From: [Leptolyngbya] sp. PCC 7376
Lineage (GTDB): Bacteria; Cyanobacteriota; Cyanobacteriia; Cyanobacteriales; MRBY01
NCBI RefSeq assembly: GCF_000316605.1
Contig: NC_019683.1
Location: 790,036 to 854,035 of the forward strand
Reading direction: 5' to 3'
DNA: 64,000 nt
The position numbers and the translations under genes are program-made. Numbering within the stretch: position 1 is the first letter of the stretch; each line of letters begins with the position of its first letter. A model generated the notes under the pieces. That model did not search any database and had not been told where the DNA came from. It saw nothing but the letters and a program-made list of their open reading frames with translations. This document shows, piece after piece, positions 23,223-31,748 of the stretch.

Positions 23223-23330
23223 ATGAGTCTCAGAAAAAATTTTCAGCATTTATCCTACGACTCTAAATTCGCATTCAAAGCCAAAATGCTCCATCAAAAA
23301 ATGATAGTGATTGATGCGGAGTTTTGTTGA
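23223..23330 (+). CDS. Very short ORF abutting ecfT and the inverted-repeat element (possible remnant)
   Basis: An ATG one base after the ecfT stop opens 35 codons (MSLRKNFQHLSYDSKFAF, ending AEFC). It ends at 23330, one base before the left arm of the 41-bp inverted repeat at 23332. It could be the start of a gene truncated by insertion of the DUF559 element, or a chance ORF. No homology is recognised. Confidence 0.2.
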   Translation: MSLRKNFQHLSYDSKFAFKAKMLHQKMIVIDAEFC

Positions 23331-23331
23331 A

Positions 23332-23372
23332 AATCCCTCCGCCTTCGGCACCTCCCTTTGAAAGGGAGGCTA
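23332..23372 (+). repeat. Left arm of 41-bp inverted repeat
   Basis: Contains CCCTCCGCCTTCGGCAC followed by CCTCCCTTTGAAAGGGAGG, itself a perfect 9-bp palindrome around G. It matches the reverse complement of 23786-23826 except at two positions. Confidence 0.9.
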
Positions 23373-23398
23373 GGTGTGACAAGTATTTGGGAGTGGCT

Positions 23399-23770
23399 AT
23401 GAGTTTACGAGGAGATTCGCTGTATTTTCCGTATAATCCGGCATTAGTAGCGAGAGCGAAAATACTACGGAAAAATATGACCTCAACCGAAAGAAAATTA
23501 TGGTTTGAGTATTTGCGGCAGTTTCCGCTCAAGGTTTATCGGCAACGCCCTATCGATCATTACATTGTTGATTTTTTCTGTCCCAAACTAAAACTCGTAA
23601 TTGAAGTGGATGGCGAGACACATTTCATAGATGAAGCACAGGAATACGACAGAGTCAGAAGTGAGATATTGCAGGGTTATGGTTTGAAAATCCTGCGCTT
23701 CACCAACGATGAAGTACTACAAAATTTTTCAGCCGTTTGCACCAGCATCGAAGAAAATCTTCCCTTCTAA
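23399..23770 (+). CDS. DUF559 domain protein (Vsr/restriction-endonuclease-like fold)
   Basis: 123 residues from the ATG at 23399, preceded by GGGAG; a longer frame from 23324 runs through the repeat arm and is unlikely. Family landmarks: ARILRKNMTSTERKLWFEYLR at the start, then RQRPIDHYIVDFFCPKLKLVIEVDGETH with the Asp and Glu-x-Asp-Gly catalytic-type residues of the PD-(D/E)xK fold, then DRVRSEILQGYGLKILRFTNDEV. It is the only gene inside the inverted repeat. Biochemical role unknown; a nuclease acting on the element ends is inference. Confidence 0.9.
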   Translation: MSLRGDSLYFPYNPALVARAKILRKNMTSTERKLWFEYLRQFPLKVYRQRPIDHYIVDFFCPKLKLVIEVDGETHFIDEAQEYDRVRSEILQGYGLKILRFTNDEVLQNFSAVCTSIEENLPF

Positions 23771-23906: not shown

Positions 23907-26900
23907 ATGTCAGCGGCAGAAGCTCTAAAACTCATCGAACAGGCAGCAGCGGAAGAATGGACAGAGCTTGATTTGTCGGGGATGAACCTCGATGCATTGC
24001 CACCAGCAATCGGGAAACTCGCAAAACTCGAAACTTTAATTCTTGGGAAATGGAATGGAGAAGCTCAAGAAAATAATTTAAAGACATTACCGCCTGAAAC
24101 CACCCAACTTCAAAAGCTAAAAAGACTGGAATGGCCTTGCAATAACCTTGAAGCAATTCCCGTAATAATCACAAAGTTCCCGAAGCTCAAACAGCTTAAC
24201 CTCAGTTTTAATCAAATAAAAGAGATTCCCGAGTCCCTCTCCGCTTTAATCAATCTCCAACAACTCGACCTCAGCGCTAACCATCAAATAAAAGAGATTC
24301 CCGATTCCCTCTCCGCTTTAATCAATCTCCAACAACTCGACCTCAGCGCTAACCATCAAATAAAAGAGATTCCCGATTCCCTCGCCGCTTTAGTCAATCT
24401 CCAACAGCTTCAACTCGGTGGAAACCCTATAAAAGAGATTCCCTATGTCCTCACCACATTAGTCAGCCTCCAACAACTCCACCTCAACGACACCGGGATA
24501 AAAGAGATACCTGATTCCCTCGCTGCTTTAGTCAATCTCCAACAGCTCTATCTTTACAATAACCAAATAAAAGAGATTCCCGATTCCCTCGCTGCTTTAA
24601 GCAATCTCCAACGGCTTCAACTAAACTTCAACCGAATAAAAAAGATACCTGATTCCCTCGCCAAATTAGCCAGTCTCCAACAGCTTGATCTTAACATCAA
24701 TCAAATAAGCGAGATTCCCGATTCCTTCGCCACTTTAAAGAATCTGCAAAAGCTTGATCTCGGCTCTAACCAAATAAAAAAGATACCTGACTCCTTCGGC
24801 AAATTAGCCAGTCTCCAACAGCTTAATCTCGGCTCTAACCAAATAAAAAAGATACCTGACTCCTTCGGCAAATTAGCCAGTCTCCAACAGCTCAATCTTA
24901 GCCACAATAAAATAGAAGAGATTCCCGATTCCTTCGCCACTTTAGTTAATCTCCAACAACTCTATCTTTACAACAATCCAATCAAAGAAGTGCCTGACTC
25001 CCTCGCCACTTTAGTTAATCTCCAACAGCTTGGTTTCAGCTCTAATCAAATAAAAGAGATTCCCGATTCCCTCGCCACTTTAGTTAATCTCCAACAGCTC
25101 GACATCAGCTCTAATCAAATAAAAGAGATTCCCGATTCCCTTGCCGCTCTAACCCATCTGCAAAATCTTGGTCTCAGCTCTACTCAAATAACAGAGATCC
25201 CTGATTTTCTCTCCACTTTAGTTAATCTCCAACAGCTCAACCTCAGCTTTAATCAAATTAAAAAAATACCCGATTCCTTCGTCAAATTAGCCAGCCTCCA
25301 AGCACTTTACCTCTGCTCTAATCAAATCACAAAAATCCCTTCTTTTTTAGAGAATTTACCTGCTCTTCAAAAACTAGATTTACGGCTTAATCCTATACCT
25401 GTTTCTCCGGAGATTCTAGGGTCAGAAGAGCTATATGAAAATCCGGGTTCCGTCAAAGATATTTTCAACTATTTACATCAACTGAAAAGTGGAAAAGTTC
25501 GTCCCCTTAACGAGGCAAAACTTATCTTGGTAGGACAAGGTAGTGTTGGCAAAACGTCTTTAATTAATCGTTTACTCCGAGATGAATTTGATAAAGACGA
25601 ATCTCAAACTGATGGTCTCAATGTTCAAGATTGGGCAATTAACGTCAACAGCAAAGATATCCGCTTAAATGTTTGGGATTTTGGTGGTCAAGAAATTTAC
25701 CATGCCACCCACCAGTTTTTTCTGACCAAACGTAGCCTCTATCTCCTCGTGTGTAACTGCCGCACCAGCGAAGAAGAAAACCGCCTTGAATATTGGCTCA
25801 AACTCATTCAAACCTTTGGCGATGCTTCCCCAGTAATCATTGTCGGCAACAAAAAAGACGAACAGCCCCTCGACATTAACCGTAAAGCTCTACAAGAAAA
25901 ATACCCCAATATCCGCGCCATCCTCGAAACTTCCTGCCAAAGCGGCGACGGCATCAAAGAACTCAGCGAGGCAATCCATCAGGAAGTTGCCAAACTCAAG
26001 GAAGTCTATGACCTATTACCCCTGTCGTGGTTTGAAGTGAAAGAACAACTGGAAGCCATGACCGAGGATTTCATTTCCTATAACCGCTACATCGGCATTT
26101 GCCACGAAAATAAAATTCCCGAAGAACAAAACCAAGAACAACTCATTGACCTGCTCCATCGCCTTGGCTTAGTCCTTAATTTTCGCGAACATCCCCTACT
26201 CCAGCAAACCAATGTCCTCAAACCTGAATGGGCAACCGAAGGCATCTATGCATTGCTTAGCGACGATCACCTCAAAACCAAATCTAAAGGCATATTTTGT
26301 TGCGATGACCTAACCCGAATTCTCGATGCAGCCCGCTATCCCAAAGAACGCCATCAGTACCTTATCGAGCTGATGAAAGAATTTGAACTATCCTTTGCTC
26401 TCGACTGCAACCCGCCACGCTTTCTGATTCCGAGCATCCTCCCAAAAGATGAACCAGAGGCCACCGATTTAAGAGGCGAGACCCTCGAATTTCAATACCA
26501 TTATCGCGTCTTGCCAAATAGCATCATTTCCCGGTTCATCGTTAATACCCACGAGAAAATCCACAATGAAACCTATTGGCGTAGTGGAGTGATGCTGGCA
26601 TATAGCGAAGGCAACGAAACTTGCAATATTGCCAGAGTCAAAGCCGACCCTGAAGATAACAAAATCTTTATTGCGATTAGCGGCAAGCCCGAAACTCGCC
26701 GCACATTCTTAGGCTTAATCCGCGACGTATTCAAAAAACTCCACAAAAGCTTTGGCAACCTCGAAATCTCTGAATGGGTTCCAGTTCCCGGCCATCCAGA
26801 ACATGCCCCCCTCGATTACCAAGAACTTCTCGGCCTCGAAGCAATGGGCGAAACCGAGGTTACCATCGGCAAACTACGACTCAAACTCGAACTCCGCAAA

Positions 26901-27458
26901 CTGCTTGATGGCTACGAATCCATTCAGCAGCGACAACAAGCAAGAAACAAAACCGCTCGAATTGACAAACAATATAATTTTTATAGTGATGTCAACGCTG
27001 ATTTTTATGGAGGTAGCAAAATGACAGGTGATCAACCCAATATTTCTATCAATGCCGACAACATTGGTATCGCAAGCATGAGCGGCGGCACAATTGAGAG
27101 CGGAGCAATCGTAGCCGGACAATATAACGAAGCATCCAACGACCTCGAAGATTTGCTGAAGCTCATTGCCCTGATGAAAGAAGCCGTTCAGTTTTTCCCA
27201 GAAGCCAAACAAGAAGACATAACCATTGACCTCGACGATATGGAAACCGAAGTCAAAAAGCCCAAGGACAAACGCCGCATCGCAAAAATCAGAAAATGTC
27301 TAACAGCCCTCGCTACCGCAGGAACCGTGGCGATCGCCTCTCTCGGGACAGCAAATGAAGCAGTCGAAAACCTTAATAGCTTCGTTGATAATGCCAATAC
27401 CCTGGCTAATAAATTTCAAATCGAATTACCCATTGCTCCACCATCGCAACAACCTTAA
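23907..27458 (+). CDS. LRR-Roc-COR (Roco) GTPase with C-terminal extension
   Basis: 1183 residues. Residues about 20-102 hold diverged leucine-rich repeats, then 17 very regular 23-24-residue repeats (consensus IKEIPDSLAALVNLQQLxLxxNQ). The Roc GTPase starts near 535: P-loop GQGSVGKTS (543-551), switch DFGGQE, and NKKD base-recognition. The COR dimerisation domain follows (about 700-990, FEVKEQLEAM, LLHRLGLVLNF). After a basic region comes a beta-rich, Gly/Ser/Asn stretch (about 1020-1075, MSGGTIESGAIVAGQYNE) seen in other cyanobacterial STAND/Roco proteins, then a helical segment and a hydrophobic helix (ATAGTVAIASLG). The output of this tail is unknown. Confidence 0.92.
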   Translation: MSAAEALKLIEQAAAEEWTELDLSGMNLDALPPAIGKLAKLETLILGKWNGEAQENNLKTLPPETTQLQKLKRLEWPCNNLEAIPVIITKFPKLKQLNLSFNQIKEIPESLSALINLQQLDLSANHQIKEIPDSLSALINLQQLDLSANHQIKEIPDSLAALVNLQQLQLGGNPIKEIPYVLTTLVSLQQLHLNDTGIKEIPDSLAALVNLQQLYLYNNQIKEIPDSLAALSNLQRLQLNFNRIKKIPDSLAKLASLQQLDLNINQISEIPDSFATLKNLQKLDLGSNQIKKIPDSFGKLASLQQLNLGSNQIKKIPDSFGKLASLQQLNLSHNKIEEIPDSFATLVNLQQLYLYNNPIKEVPDSLATLVNLQQLGFSSNQIKEIPDSLATLVNLQQLDISSNQIKEIPDSLAALTHLQNLGLSSTQITEIPDFLSTLVNLQQLNLSFNQIKKIPDSFVKLASLQALYLCSNQITKIPSFLENLPALQKLDLRLNPIPVSPEILGSEELYENPGSVKDIFNYLHQLKSGKVRPLNEAKLILVGQGSVGKTSLINRLLRDEFDKDESQTDGLNVQDWAINVNSKDIRLNVWDFGGQEIYHATHQFFLTKRSLYLLVCNCRTSEEENRLEYWLKLIQTFGDASPVIIVGNKKDEQPLDINRKALQEKYPNIRAILETSCQSGDGIKELSEAIHQEVAKLKEVYDLLPLSWFEVKEQLEAMTEDFISYNRYIGICHENKIPEEQNQEQLIDLLHRLGLVLNFREHPLLQQTNVLKPEWATEGIYALLSDDHLKTKSKGIFCCDDLTRILDAARYPKERHQYLIELMKEFELSFALDCNPPRFLIPSILPKDEPEATDLRGETLEFQYHYRVLPNSIISRFIVNTHEKIHNETYWRSGVMLAYSEGNETCNIARVKADPEDNKIFIAISGKPETRRTFLGLIRDVFKKLHKSFGNLEISEWVPVPGHPEHAPLDYQELLGLEAMGETEVTIGKLRLKLELRKLLDGYESIQQRQQARNKTARIDKQYNFYSDVNADFYGGSKMTGDQPNISINADNIGIASMSGGTIESGAIVAGQYNEASNDLEDLLKLIALMKEAVQFFPEAKQEDITIDLDDMETEVKKPKDKRRIAKIRKCLTALATAGTVAIASLGTANEAVENLNSFVDNANTLANKFQIELPIAPPSQQP
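24216..25394 (+). repeat. Tandem array of 17 leucine-rich-repeat units (69-72 bp each)
   Basis: Units of 69 bp (two of 72 bp) starting ATAAAAGAGATTCCCGATTCC. Several neighbours are almost identical at DNA level, including the first two 72-bp units and the pair starting near 24774 and 24843, showing recent tandem duplication rather than only protein-level conservation. Confidence 0.9.
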
Positions 27459-27480
27459 AAAAGTGGGACGTGTCAGAGCT

Positions 27481-28224
27481 TTACTCATTACGCTTTGAAA
27501 TTGCGACAAGACCTCTGGTTTGATCCACAGAAGGATCTATCGTGTTAATTGCTGCCCACAAATCCTCTACCGTCACCCACACAGGCGGATACTTATAAGT
27601 TGCAACATCCAGAATGAGCAGGCGATCGCTCTCTTCGTTGTAGGCTGCAATCGGTGAAATATGGCCCCCAGATTCTTGATTAATCGCGCGACGTAGATAG
27701 TTCACCAAAATATAGTTATTCGGTTCTTGCAGATTTTGGCGGACGAGTTCACGGAATTCCGACAAAGACAAATCGCTGCCATGATGCACCTCCACATCTA
27801 CCGGATAAGTACTGAGTAGTTGGCCTAGTTGGCTGAGAGTCATCCCCTGCCAACGAATTTTGTCAGCAGGGTGAATGTTTTCCATTTCAGTATTAAAAAT
27901 ATTTGTCTGGGTAAAATATTTTTCCCCTAATTCCGGCGCAAACGGCGCTTCAATCCCAAGAGCATTCAGGGCGATCACCATACTTGCAATACCACAATAA
28001 GCACCATTTATTTGCGTGACAAACTGTTCACTAAGGGGCAGATAATCCTGTTGAGCAGCACTAGAAAACAATAATTCCCGGCCTTGTGTCGTATGAAAAT
28101 CAATGAGGCTTTCATCTATCGGCAATGTTTCCGCACTAAAATACGACCCCGCAAAAAAACTAATAGAGGCGATCGCCGGAAGAATCAGCCATTTTGTTGT
28201 TTTCGAGATTAAGTGTTTCATCAC
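27481..28224 (-). CDS. Phytochelatin-synthase-like cysteine peptidase, membrane-anchored or exported
   Basis: 247 residues. An N-terminal hydrophobic segment (LILPAIASISFFAGSYF) acts as signal or anchor. The catalytic triad of the phytochelatin synthase family is in place: C77 (GAYCGIASMVIALNALG), H188 (SGGHISPIAAY) and D206 (LLILDVATYKYPPVWV), with the 18-residue His-Asp spacing of known PCS enzymes. The plant C-terminal metal-sensing domain is absent, as in bacterial half-length forms, which mainly hydrolyse glutathione to gamma-Glu-Cys. It is the last gene of a tight minus-strand unit (7-bp gap). Confidence 0.9.
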   Translation of the reverse strand: MMKHLISKTTKWLILPAIASISFFAGSYFSAETLPIDESLIDFHTTQGRELLFSSAAQQDYLPLSEQFVTQINGAYCGIASMVIALNALGIEAPFAPELGEKYFTQTNIFNTEMENIHPADKIRWQGMTLSQLGQLLSTYPVDVEVHHGSDLSLSEFRELVRQNLQEPNNYILVNYLRRAINQESGGHISPIAAYNEESDRLLILDVATYKYPPVWVTVEDLWAAINTIDPSVDQTRGLVAISKRNE

Positions 28225-28231
28225 AAACCGA

Positions 28232-29806
28232 TCAAAATTCTAATAGCGAATATTGATTACGACCATTATTTTTGGATTGGTAGAGCGCCTCATCCGCCAA
28301 GCTCAACACCTGCTCCAAAGAACAAGCATCATTCGGGATGCCAGACACCACGCCTAAACTCAGCGTAATCAAATCTTGAACAGTAGACATCCGATGTTCC
28401 AACTTGAGCCTCGCCAGCTCATTCTGCAAATTTTCAACAATGATCATGGCCTCCGGCTTCGTCGTATTCGGAAATAGCAACACAAATTCTTCGCCGCCAT
28501 AACGTGCAGCCAGATCATGTTCACGCTGCGCTGCTGCACTAATCACCTGAGCCACTTGAAATAAACAAATATCTCCCTGCAAGTGACCATAATAATCATT
28601 ATATTTTTTGAAAAAGTCGATATCGATTAACGCCAAAGATAAAGGTATTTGATCCTGCACTGCACGCTTCCAAGTCTTGATCGCGTAAAGATTAAAATAT
28701 CGACGATTCGCGATTTGTGTCAGTTCATCAAAATTGGCCTGGTGCGTTAAACGTTCATTCGCCGCCTTAAGCTCTTCCTCTATGTGCTTACGCTCTGTGA
28801 TATCCGTTAGCAAACTCAAGACGTGGCGATCGCCCTTGCCATAGAAATCAACAAACGTATTATTCACATAGAACCATAACTCTTGACCCTCACAATCCTG
28901 GAGACCAATATCAAAACTCACAGATTTTTCATAATCAAGCTGCTCCAATTGCTCCTTCAAAACACCAGCGAACTCTTCAGAACTACATAGCTCTAAAGCA
29001 TTTTGGTTTAATAGAGCCTCATTCGACATTCGCAACTTACTAGACAACTTGGAATTAACAAAAATAATTTTATATTCCGCATCTAAAATCCAAATCCCTT
29101 CCTCAGCATTCTCAACAATCTTTTGATAGCGCTCTTCACTAAAATTCAATGCAGCCAAGGTTTTCTGGCGTTCTTTAATCGATTGGATAATGACTAAGCA
29201 AAAAATAACAACCAGAAGAAAAGAAAGAATATAGGCAAAAACCAAGACAATAACTAGTCGCTTTTTAAAAATAGCAGAAGCCTTTTGCTGCTGCTGCATA
29301 TACCTTTGATTCTTGAATAAGATAATATTAGCGATCTTCTCCATCTCACCAAGATCCTTAGTGATATTCACTAAATCTTGCCTTGCAATCGATTGCCTCA
29401 GAATTTCTGGTTTATACTGCTGAACCAGCATCCAGTCAGAGGTATAACGAGAGAGTTCTACCTCTGAATTTGGTGACAAAGGATAATAACGAACTTGATT
29501 TTGAACGACTCGAATACTACTTTCGAGGAGATCAAACTGTTTTTCAATTTCACCCAATTCGGATTTTTCAGGCAAAGAAGCTAACAGGACTTGTAGTTTT
29601 AATGTTTCTCGTCCTAATTGGTCGATGGCATGAATCGTCTCACCAGGCGCAAAATTATAAAACGGATTATCTTTATCTATCCTCCGCACAAATAAAATAA
29701 GAATAAAGACAGAAAAAGACGTAACTAATCCAAAACCGGCAATTAGTATCGTACTAATATTTTTAGTTTTAAAAATCCATGTTTTTTCTGAATTATAGAG
29801 AGCCAT
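28232..29806 (-). CDS. Membrane PAS-GGDEF diguanylate cyclase
   Basis: 524 residues. Two membrane helices (about 17-40 and 187-210) bracket a roughly 140-residue periplasmic sensor region rich in helices. A PAS domain follows (SEERYQKIVENAEEGIWILD to DITERKHIEEEL, about 225-345), then GGDEF (about 355-524) with active-site GGEEF in ARYGGEEF and an inhibitory I-site RxxD (REHD) five residues before it. It should make cyclic di-GMP and be product-inhibited. Downstream of the lipoprotein gene by 28 bp, upstream of the PCS-like gene by 7 bp: a three-gene unit. Confidence 0.95.
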   Translation of the reverse strand: MALYNSEKTWIFKTKNISTILIAGFGLVTSFSVFILILFVRRIDKDNPFYNFAPGETIHAIDQLGRETLKLQVLLASLPEKSELGEIEKQFDLLESSIRVVQNQVRYYPLSPNSEVELSRYTSDWMLVQQYKPEILRQSIARQDLVNITKDLGEMEKIANIILFKNQRYMQQQQKASAIFKKRLVIVLVFAYILSFLLVVIFCLVIIQSIKERQKTLAALNFSEERYQKIVENAEEGIWILDAEYKIIFVNSKLSSKLRMSNEALLNQNALELCSSEEFAGVLKEQLEQLDYEKSVSFDIGLQDCEGQELWFYVNNTFVDFYGKGDRHVLSLLTDITERKHIEEELKAANERLTHQANFDELTQIANRRYFNLYAIKTWKRAVQDQIPLSLALIDIDFFKKYNDYYGHLQGDICLFQVAQVISAAAQREHDLAARYGGEEFVLLFPNTTKPEAMIIVENLQNELARLKLEHRMSTVQDLITLSLGVVSGIPNDACSLEQVLSLADEALYQSKNNGRNQYSLLEF

Positions 29807-29834
29807 GGATCAAACAATGTGGTGGATGTCTTGC

Positions 29835-30407
29835 TCAGGAAACCGAGATTGATTCAATTTGCCTAATCCAAAAAGCCTGTCGTGTGATTTCTATCTCTGG
29901 TTTGTTCTCGAAAGGCGGAACAATGAGCATCGCAGGACCTCGATAATTTCTCTCCATATATCTCCCCTCTTGCTTTAATGCAAAAAGGATGGGAATTTCT
30001 CGGGTGGTTTGGATAGGTACGCTAATAGTGTAATCGTTCAGAGCTTTGATTTCTAACAAAGTTGCATCGGGTTGAATTTGCCAAAGATCCATCAGGTCAT
30101 TGAATAATACTCCTTCGAATGTCACTTGCTGATTTTCAAAAAGATCAAAGATTTTATATTCGACAATCTGGAGTTGCTCGATTGTCTGGCGATCCAGATA
30201 CAGTGCCTCGTCTTGGTTTGTCGCTTGAATTTTACCCGTAACCGTTAGTATAGGCTCTGTTTCTGGTAGTGGAATCGCTTCCTGTTTTACAAAATCTGCA
30301 GGTCGAATAATGGTGACCATTGGCTGTTGTTTTTGGGGTTCTGGAGTACAGCTTGTCAATAGAAAAAAGGCGATCGCCAAGGCTGCTATTTTACGGAGAA
30401 AGATCAT
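29835..30407 (-). CDS. Lipoprotein with molybdopterin-oxidoreductase-like fold
   Basis: About 190 residues from ATG 30407 (MIFLRKIAALAIAFFLLTSC, lipobox Cys); longer in-frame reads begin at ATG 30419 or TTG 30452. The mature part has the pattern of a periplasmic sulfite-oxidase-type domain without cofactor residues: ILTVTGKIQATN, then YLDRQTIEQLQIVEYKI, FEGVLFNDLMDLW, LEIKALNDYTISVPI, and a C-terminal ITRQAFWIRQIESI. Such lipoproteins sit next to diguanylate cyclase genes in many bacteria, and here it is 28 bp upstream of one. Whether it binds molybdopterin or acts as a redox or ligand sensor is unclear. Confidence 0.65.
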   Translation of the reverse strand: MIFLRKIAALAIAFFLLTSCTPEPQKQQPMVTIIRPADFVKQEAIPLPETEPILTVTGKIQATNQDEALYLDRQTIEQLQIVEYKIFDLFENQQVTFEGVLFNDLMDLWQIQPDATLLEIKALNDYTISVPIQTTREIPILFALKQEGRYMERNYRGPAMLIVPPFENKPEIEITRQAFWIRQIESISVS

Positions 30408-30452
30408 GGCAAAGAACATCGAATTCAGCTTGATAACAAAAGCTTTTATCAA

Positions 30453-30896
30453 CCCAAAATCGTTAAAATTTCAGTTTTTTGATAGTTTTTCATGGTTTTG
30501 TTATCACAACTACCTTCCCCAAATCTTATGACTTACAGGACAGTAATGTCGTAATTTATCTGTAAAGCAAAAGCACTATTTTTCACTTTAAATCTACGTT
30601 TTTATTCACATCAGTAAGTATGCCAAAGCGTTTATAAATAAAACATCTCGGAATTTATACGGTTATTTTATTGGTTATATTTTTGTATCAAATACGACCT
30701 AAATATAGTTCAACTCAGATTATCAAAGCAAATCCAACTTAAAGGGTTCAAGCTATCAACAACTTCCTCCGAATTATTCATAGATTATCGCCAATATTCA
30801 CAGCATCTTACTTCCCACTATGTATATGTTGTGGCTTTATGTTGTAGCTCTCAGAATTTATACGGTACGTTTTTAAGGTTTTAGTTTACAAAACCT
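30453..30896. other. AT-rich intergenic region upstream of pheA's 3' end
   Basis: About 440 bases with no ORF. It holds a 17-bp near-perfect direct repeat (30647-30663 and 30850-30866, core GAATTTATACGGT) and, at 30875-30897, an 8-bp stem AAGGTTTT/AAAACCTT overlapping the pheA stop. The rest is A/T-rich with no recognised RNA gene. Confidence 0.5.
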
Positions 30897-31748
30897 TTAT
30901 GCAGGAATGGCTTGGGGGATAGTGCGATAGTTACCAAAAATCTTCAGAATCTCTGTATGGGCTTGCAATTCCTGAAGGGCATCTTTCACCGTTTGATCGC
31001 TAAGGCAACCATCCAGATCAACAAAAAACAAGTATTCTCCTAGCGATTTCTTGGTGGGACGAGACTCAATTCGGCTGAGATTAATTTTTCGGCGAGCAAA
31101 AACTTCAAGGGCATCGACTAAAACACCGGGGATTTTGGCTGGCAGGGTAAAAGCTAAGGAAATTACTTCTCCCTCAGACTGGGACGTTTTGCCTAAGACC
31201 CAAAAGCGGGTGCAATTTTCTGGGGAATCATTAATCGTTTCCGCCAGCATCGGCAATTTGTAGAGTTGTGCTGCCCGGGGGGAGGCGATCGCCGCAATAT
31301 CTGGCTGCCCTTCGAGATGTTGCAAAATTTTCGTCGTCGAATTTTCTTCAATTAAAGGTGCATGGGGAATATGGGTCTCTAACCAACGTTGGCATTGCGC
31401 GAGCGCCTGTGGATGGGAATGCACCGTTTTAATGTGCTCAAAATCTGGCGCAAACGAAATTAGCGAATGATAAATTGGCAGAATAATTTGATGACAAATC
31501 GAGAGGGGATGCAGCTCCCACACGAGATCAAGAGAAATTGCCACCGACCCTTGAATCGAGTTTTCAATCGGGACAACCGCTAAATCAACATCGTCCTGCG
31601 CCAAGCTATACAAACTTTGGGCAATATTCTGACAGGGCGCCAGAATCACATCCTGCGGCTGTTCGCGCTGCAACCATTCCTGATACGTAAACGCTGCCGC
31701 TTCTGCGTTTGTCCCAGCTGGACCTAAATGGGCGATTTTGATGACCAT
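30897..31748 (-). CDS. pheA: Prephenate dehydratase
   Basis: 283 residues. It converts prephenate to phenylpyruvate in phenylalanine synthesis. The catalytic domain runs from IAHLGPAGTNAEAAA through VDLAVVPIENSIQGSVAISLDL to the NCTRFWVLG motif (TRF) near residue 188. The C-terminal ACT domain (about 200-283) bears GVLVDALEVFARRKINLSRIESRPTKKSLGEYLFFVDL, where ESRP is the phenylalanine-binding motif, so feedback inhibition by Phe is expected. It is a stand-alone enzyme without chorismate mutase. The start MVIKIAHLG at 31748 is the only plausible one. Confidence 0.95.
   Translation of the reverse strand: MVIKIAHLGPAGTNAEAAAFTYQEWLQREQPQDVILAPCQNIAQSLYSLAQDDVDLAVVPIENSIQGSVAISLDLVWELHPLSICHQIILPIYHSLISFAPDFEHIKTVHSHPQALAQCQRWLETHIPHAPLIEENSTTKILQHLEGQPDIAAIASPRAAQLYKLPMLAETINDSPENCTRFWVLGKTSQSEGEVISLAFTLPAKIPGVLVDALEVFARRKINLSRIESRPTKKSLGEYLFFVDLDGCLSDQTVKDALQELQAHTEILKIFGNYRTIPQAIPA

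Follow-up and report, generated by a model that had tools for sequence, protein, structure and literature searches.

A cyanobacterial PruR-type lipoprotein and sensor diguanylate cyclase as a likely PruR–DcpA-type module with a lineage-specific phytochelatin-synthase-like neighbour

In a 64,000-nucleotide stretch of the [Leptolyngbya] sp. PCC 7376 genome (contig NC_019683.1, positions 790,036 to 854,035; the window), three consecutive minus-strand genes encode a lipoprotein, a membrane sensor diguanylate cyclase and a phytochelatin synthase (PCS)-like enzyme. The locus is a cyanobacterial variant of a known module linking pterins to cyclic di-GMP (c-di-GMP), joined by a lineage-specific PCS neighbour. 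We consider it likely that the lipoprotein gene, pruR, and the cyclase gene form a PruR–DcpA-type module, and that the PCS-like gene is a downstream passenger outside the signal path. The PruR of Agrobacterium binds pterin in the periplasm; its gene lies directly upstream of dcpA, and the protein controls DcpA, a dual diguanylate cyclase/phosphodiesterase (PMC13259868). A preliminary description of the same DNA had proposed that all three genes form one circuit linking c-di-GMP to the thiol or metal status of the envelope. That three-gene circuit does not stand, and the lipoprotein–GGDEF pairing, which the description had called known from elsewhere, probably belongs with PruR–DcpA-type systems. 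The elements at issue, in window coordinates, are as follows.

29835–30407, minus strand: PruR-type lipoprotein with a pterin-binding fold (phmmer matches to PDB sequences, structural model and residues; lipobox by eye)
28232–29806, minus strand: membrane sensor diguanylate cyclase, PAS-GGDEF (Pfam, motif scan, alignment, model and profile match)
27481–28224, minus strand: PCS-like cysteine (trans)peptidase (Pfam, match to PDB 2BTW, catalytic triad)
29862–29864, minus strand: Arg182 codon of pruR, possibly the result of one changed base or of a sequencing error
30408–30896, minus strand: 489-bp low-GC intergenic stretch from pheA to pruR, the probable promoter region of the pair, judging from open reading frame (ORF) positions and the GC profile

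The lipoprotein is, on its sequence and predicted model, a PruR-type protein and not a molybdoenzyme. A phmmer search of PDB sequences returned 7RKB (E-value 8.1e-18), 7KOS (2.7e-17), 7KOM (2e-5) and 7KP2 (0.0015), all named putative pterin-binding protein PruR, ahead of an unrelated match at 0.72. The predicted model (predicted local distance difference test score (pLDDT) 76.8, predicted template-modelling score 0.72) found PruR chains as all of its seven best PDB matches (E-values 1.4e-10 to 6.3e-6, template-modelling scores by target 0.77–0.88), with sulfite dehydrogenases and related molybdoenzymes ranking below them. The sole cysteine, Cys20, lies in a lipobox-like LTSC; because the mature protein has no cysteine beyond this one, it cannot ligate molybdenum as sulfite oxidases do. 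The molybdopterin fold of the preliminary description therefore survives as a fold and falls as a function. A cysteine occupies the lipobox place in 11 of 11 paired cyanobacterial PruR copies, the version in L082, TTRC, not being canonical, and PruR is probably lipid-anchored.

We numbered the pterin-site residues through the Phyllobacterium orthologue L081, in which the tyrosine of ALND-Tyr is residue 104 and the tryptophan of WQ is residue 160, matching the numbers of Agrobacterium PruR (PMC13259868); the mapping rests on that spacing and on a gap-free alignment of L081 with 7KOS. The equivalents of Tyr104 (Y126) and Asn102 (N124) are retained in the window protein. Two of the paired cyanobacterial copies, L086 and L087, have phenylalanine in place of the pterin-site tyrosine and keep the tryptophan. 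Nucleotide differences from the genus-mate G005 fall mainly at third codon positions both in pruR (0.274/0.100/0.553 for the three positions) and in the cyclase gene (0.326/0.174/0.531), indicating that both are real genes under constraint. Synonymous divergence (dS) from G005 is near saturation for the cyclase gene (2.35) and was not computable for pruR.

Directly downstream of pruR, the window sensor is a membrane protein with a c-di-GMP domain. It comprises a transmembrane segment, a helical periplasmic domain (predicted to span approximately residues 40–185), a second transmembrane segment, a PAS domain (225–335) and a GGDEF domain (357–518). The cyclase motif, GGEEF, is preceded by the I-site REHD (RxxD), as the preliminary description had it, and product inhibition of the cyclase is therefore predicted. 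In the model the periplasmic part is all-helical (pLDDT 82.3); its start carries an HX7E segment (H59...E67) and the sequence QLGRE. The corresponding Q[LV]xRE is present at the start of the periplasmic domain in 11 of 11 cyanobacterial sensors, and its glutamate aligns with that of WX7E when the profile is compared with five proteobacterial sensors linked to PruR (79 columns, probability 66.9, E-value 5.2e-5). Among those five, WX7E is exact in L077, L080 and L081 and not in L078 and L079. By motif scan, seven of the cyanobacterial sensors end in GGEEF and four in a histidine-kinase motif, and the place of the WX7E tryptophan is taken by histidine in all seven GGDEF sensors and by arginine in all four kinase sensors. 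Since all 11 share descent, two lineages, and not a functional difference, may lie behind this split. Pfam, applied to the sensors of the window, L098, L083 and L086, detected no EAL domain in the window cyclase or in the other two GGDEF sensors scanned (L098 and L083). By analogy, the window sensor would act like the partner DcpA, yet it is not a DcpA, as it has no EAL domain.

The pairing recurs across cyanobacteria. Searching 242 genomes of the class for PruR produced hits in 23, seven of them close (own genome included; E-value 2.3e-33 or better). In a profile search across the order (388 genomes), 46 had a match at E-value 1e-10; of these, the own genome, G005 and G396 alone are set apart (2.6e-38 or better). 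A further scan of genome contigs yielded eight loci, five of which were already among the contigs of the other searches. Together, the searches put a membrane sensor behind a close PruR homologue in 11 genomes: the window; the genus-mate G005 (L098); Acaryochloris-type L062 and L083, the label of L062 resting on G268 and G281 belonging to one genus; L082; the Pseudanabaenaceae metagenome-assembled genomes L088 and L089; Cyanothece SIO2G6 (L084); MO_188.B28 (L085); Leptolyngbya PCC 7375 (L086); and Adonisia turfae (L087). The order pruR then sensor also holds in five of five proteobacterial loci fetched. In G005 the pair occupies the same position next to pheA, at 70% identity for PruR and 60% for the cyclase, and has no PCS gene. 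Weaker PruR matches (mostly approximately 340–390 residues, some approximately 206) were left out of the PruR count; the four scanned by Pfam all carry Oxidored_molyb, and six weaker-match loci (L068–L073) showed no match to the sensor or to PCS.

Several further observations concern PruR relatives and their surroundings. In the Acaryochloris-type genome of L062, a transposase-like ORF (by eye; L062:5156-6475) separates pruR from its cyclase. The PruR-like protein of G396 (L138:4527-5132) is an orphan: no sensor or PCS match was detected in its 13-kb stretch, it has no ALND motif and, like the window protein, it has arginine where Trp160 would be. The longer weak matches include a recurrent cyanobacterial family of approximately 340–390 residues (L071:6420-7457, L072:6291-7307, L073:6413-7573) with an N-terminal PruR-like Oxidored_molyb domain and a C-terminal half without a Pfam match. 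On two alphaproteobacterial plasmids (L077:3308-3679, L079:3306-3662), a 6-carboxytetrahydropterin synthase is annotated divergently beside a pruR–EAL pair, hinting at a pterin source. PTPS was found in the own genome but also in 9 of 14 control genomes and does not discriminate.

The PCS-like gene behaves differently from the pair. The protein is a full-length homologue of Nostoc Alr0975 (NsPCS; PDB 2BTW, E-value 1.1e-69), which we take to be the cyanobacterial PCS-like protein that converts glutathione to gamma-glutamylcysteine. Its triad is intact, C77/H188/D206 when counted from the GTG start, as previously described, or C76/H187/D205 from the ATG. The N-terminus is hydrophobic, an export signal or an anchor (by eye); in 9 of 10 relatives (L021–L030) a small-x-Ala sequence precedes QT at the end of this stretch (by eye). 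The window protein reads YFSA-ETL there and may remain membrane-anchored, because it has phenylalanine instead of a small residue at position −3 relative to the likely cleavage site. Of 60 relatives, own genome counted, 17 carry PCS; none of the five genus-mates does. Conversion of glutathione to gamma-glutamylcysteine by a cyanobacterial PCS-like protein is the subject of a title cited in PMC7411734, according to which a cyanobacterial PCS makes phytochelatin under cadmium.

The preliminary description had suggested examining whether the trio is conserved. It is not: PCS adjoins the PruR–sensor pair in one of 11 genomes, that of the window, and we reject a conserved trio on this count and on that of the PCS loci elsewhere. 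Three of the other 10 pair-bearing genomes have PCS on contigs separate from the pair (G062, G147 and G125), and in seven it was not found (G005, G268, G281 (82% complete), G213, G287, G288 and G289; completeness figures are lacking for the last three). The L085 pair sits at a contig end, and PCS was not found anywhere in that genome. Conversely, tblastn at E-value 1e-4 placed neither the window cyclase nor PruR near any of 21 PCS loci elsewhere (18 plus 3), some of them short or broken (L033 and L035 are fragments, L036 has stops). The 20 proteins neighbouring 10 PCS loci belong, by Pfam, to unrelated genes; the sole recurrence is a class II tRNA synthetase with a GAD domain (two loci), and the three proteins without a match may include an unnamed recurrent neighbour family. 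At three annotated plasmid loci PCS has neither a GGDEF nor a PruR gene as neighbour; at one of them it is surrounded by genes for oxidoreductases (multicopper oxidase, c-type cytochrome and GMC oxidoreductase), and at another it has cation-ATPase genes on either side. A scan for the locus pattern with PCS alone returned no relative, a limit of that method, as the direct PCS search finds many. At the G005 pair locus no PCS remnant was detected (best E-value 2.3), and the next ORF, approximately 425 bp past the pair, starts a cytochrome-oxidase-type cluster (sequences read by eye). In a test for rearrangement, the CoxB-like protein encoded by the third ORF past that pair has only a 35–39% match elsewhere in the own genome. 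PCS is probably a lineage-specific, incidental neighbour of the pair.

The gene layout at the locus is as previously described, reproduced here from the ORF list, with intergenic gaps of 7 bp (28225–28231) and 28 bp (29807–29834). The PCS ORF gives 247 residues from a GTG at 28224 or 246 from an ATG at 28221; the cyclase ORF (28232–29806) gives 524; and the lipoprotein ORF (29835–30452) gives 205 from a TTG, with ATGs at 30419 and 30407, the latter giving 190. Pfam assigns Phytochelatin (PF05023; 5.8e-67) to the first, GGDEF (4.7e-47) and PAS to the second and Oxidored_molyb (3.9e-6) to the third. Scanning 27300–31000 detected one terminator-like site (shuffle mean 3.2), at 28342–28325 within the cyclase gene and approximately 100 bp before the PCS start, and none between the cyclase and PCS genes; 11 promoter-like sites, where shuffles give 9.2, amount to no more than chance. 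The three genes may plausibly be co-transcribed.

In the mechanism we propose, a reduced pterin, the ligand expected from PruR homology, would bind lipid-anchored PruR in the periplasm, and PruR would dock on the helical periplasmic domain of the neighbouring sensor. The signal would then cross the membrane and pass through PAS to GGDEF, raising or lowering c-di-GMP synthesis. The output would be synthesis only, because the cyclase, unlike Agrobacterium DcpA, has no EAL domain. The PCS, a predicted exported enzyme of the Alr0975 type, would be expected to convert glutathione to gamma-glutamylcysteine and perhaps make some phytochelatin; it would probably be read from the transcript of the pair and play no role in the signal path. 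Of the circuit from envelope to c-di-GMP in the preliminary description, an envelope signal remains probable, whereas thiol or metal as that signal, and PCS as a member, do not: homology points to a pterin.

A number of observations weigh against this proposal. The Trp160 equivalent of window PruR is Arg182, whereas all ten of the other paired copies in cyanobacteria, that of the genus-mate included, have tryptophan. Arg182 argues against the pterin site being normal in this strain, and the protein may bind pterin poorly or take another ligand. In the sensors, the glutamate of WX7E is kept but its tryptophan is absent; the match of the periplasmic domain to the proteobacterial sensors is moderate; and a Foldseek search with the periplasmic-domain model returned weak, generic helical proteins such as NarQ, none below E-value 0.001. 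The PruR match, and hence the pair, is also missing in four of five genus-mates in the order-level profile search. With Arg182 in place and Trp160 mostly, not strictly, conserved among PruR proteins (PMC13259868), we call the protein PruR-type; its pterin response may be changed or lost. Taken further, the same residue would mark a decaying or re-tuned copy, in which the exchange has cost PruR its pterin site and the lipoprotein fixes the cyclase state constitutively or senses another ligand. The arginine of the orphan in G396 fits this reading, which we nevertheless regard as unlikely, given the retained pterin-site Tyr and Asn, the third-position bias of the differences from G005 and the chance that Arg182 is a single-base sequencing error.

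The remaining alternatives concern the partners of the pair. That PCS works with the lipoprotein and the cyclase so that c-di-GMP follows the thiol or metal status of the envelope draws on its position 7 bp downstream on the same strand, its hydrophobic N-terminus and its intact triad, on which grounds enzyme and sensor domain may share the periplasm, and on the missing terminator. The preliminary description had itself allowed that unrelated neighbours of the PCS-like gene in relatives would weaken the link; with such neighbours, no partner at 21 loci and PCS absent from or on other contigs in the 10 other pair-bearing genomes, we judge this circuit very improbable. We give scarcely more than passing credence to a version confined to this lineage, in which a recruited PCS sets the pterin redox state through glutathione, gamma-glutamylcysteine and metal levels, or these replace pterin as the signal for the Arg-bearing PruR, so that c-di-GMP reports envelope thiol or metal status. 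A true molybdenum-cofactor, sulfite-oxidase-like enzyme, beside a GGDEF gene incidentally, would explain the Oxidored_molyb match (27 bits, with the cut-off at 24), but the only cysteine is that of the lipobox, PruR structures outrank all sulfite-oxidase (SUOX) structures and the pair recurs in 11 genomes; we rejected this candidate, which has practically no chance of being right.

Elsewhere in the window, and convergent with the PCS gene, a gene at 23907–27458 (plus strand) encodes a 1183-residue Roco (LRR-Roc-COR) protein; it is preceded by a DUF559 endonuclease-like gene (23324–23770). The host genome is a single contig of 5,125,950 bp.

The PruR–cyclase pair, if it works as proposed, would supply a link from pterin to c-di-GMP in cyanobacteria, and the question is directly testable. 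In Synechocystis 6803, cyanopterin is produced as the tetrahydro form at levels similar to those of chlorophyll a, and phototaxis in cyanobacteria has been linked to pterins and, separately, to c-di-GMP (PMC3546692). In the literature searched (titles and abstract starts, with most subscription papers outside), we found no described cyanobacterial PruR pair, no PCS–c-di-GMP system and no protein joining pterins to c-di-GMP in cyanobacteria. The Figure 4 network of bacterial and archaeal homologues in PMC13259868 may already include PruR proteins of cyanobacteria; a Pseudomonas gene also named pruR exists (PMC9219673). The lipoprotein form, the output-linked His/Arg split at the WX7E tryptophan and the Trp-to-Arg copy provide natural variants for mapping PruR–sensor communication.

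Among known systems, PruR–DcpA of Agrobacterium tumefaciens (PMC13259868) shares with the window pair the position of pruR immediately ahead of the gene for a membrane GGDEF sensor, a PruR/SUOX-type fold without a molybdenum-ligand cysteine, the pterin-site Tyr and Asn, an N-terminal export signal and a helical periplasmic sensor domain with an X7E segment. It differs in that proteobacterial PruR proteins have plain signal peptides, whereas the cyanobacterial ones have the lipobox-place cysteine; the window sensor, without EAL, is not dual-function and has histidine for the WX7E tryptophan; and the window has arginine for Trp160 in PruR and a PCS gene downstream. PruR–sensor pairs with c-di-GMP or histidine-kinase output have been described for Proteobacteria (PMC13259868, section 8). 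The kinase-output PruR-DTB type (PruR with a TorS/BaeS-like histidine kinase) is resembled by the pairs of Cyanothece SIO2G6, MO_188.B28, PCC 7375 and Adonisia, in which the sensor behind PruR bears a histidine-kinase motif (PAS-HisKA-HATPase-REC by Pfam in PCC 7375); these have RX7E instead of WX7E and a cysteine at the lipobox place, and are relatives of the window pair, distinct from it. Finally, the PCS resembles Alr0975/NsPCS (PDB 2BTW, 2BU3, 6THO, 6TH5 and 6TJL) along its full length, in its triad and in its N-terminal hydrophobic region, and differs from it in its place behind a PruR–cyclase pair and in the phenylalanine before its likely cleavage site.

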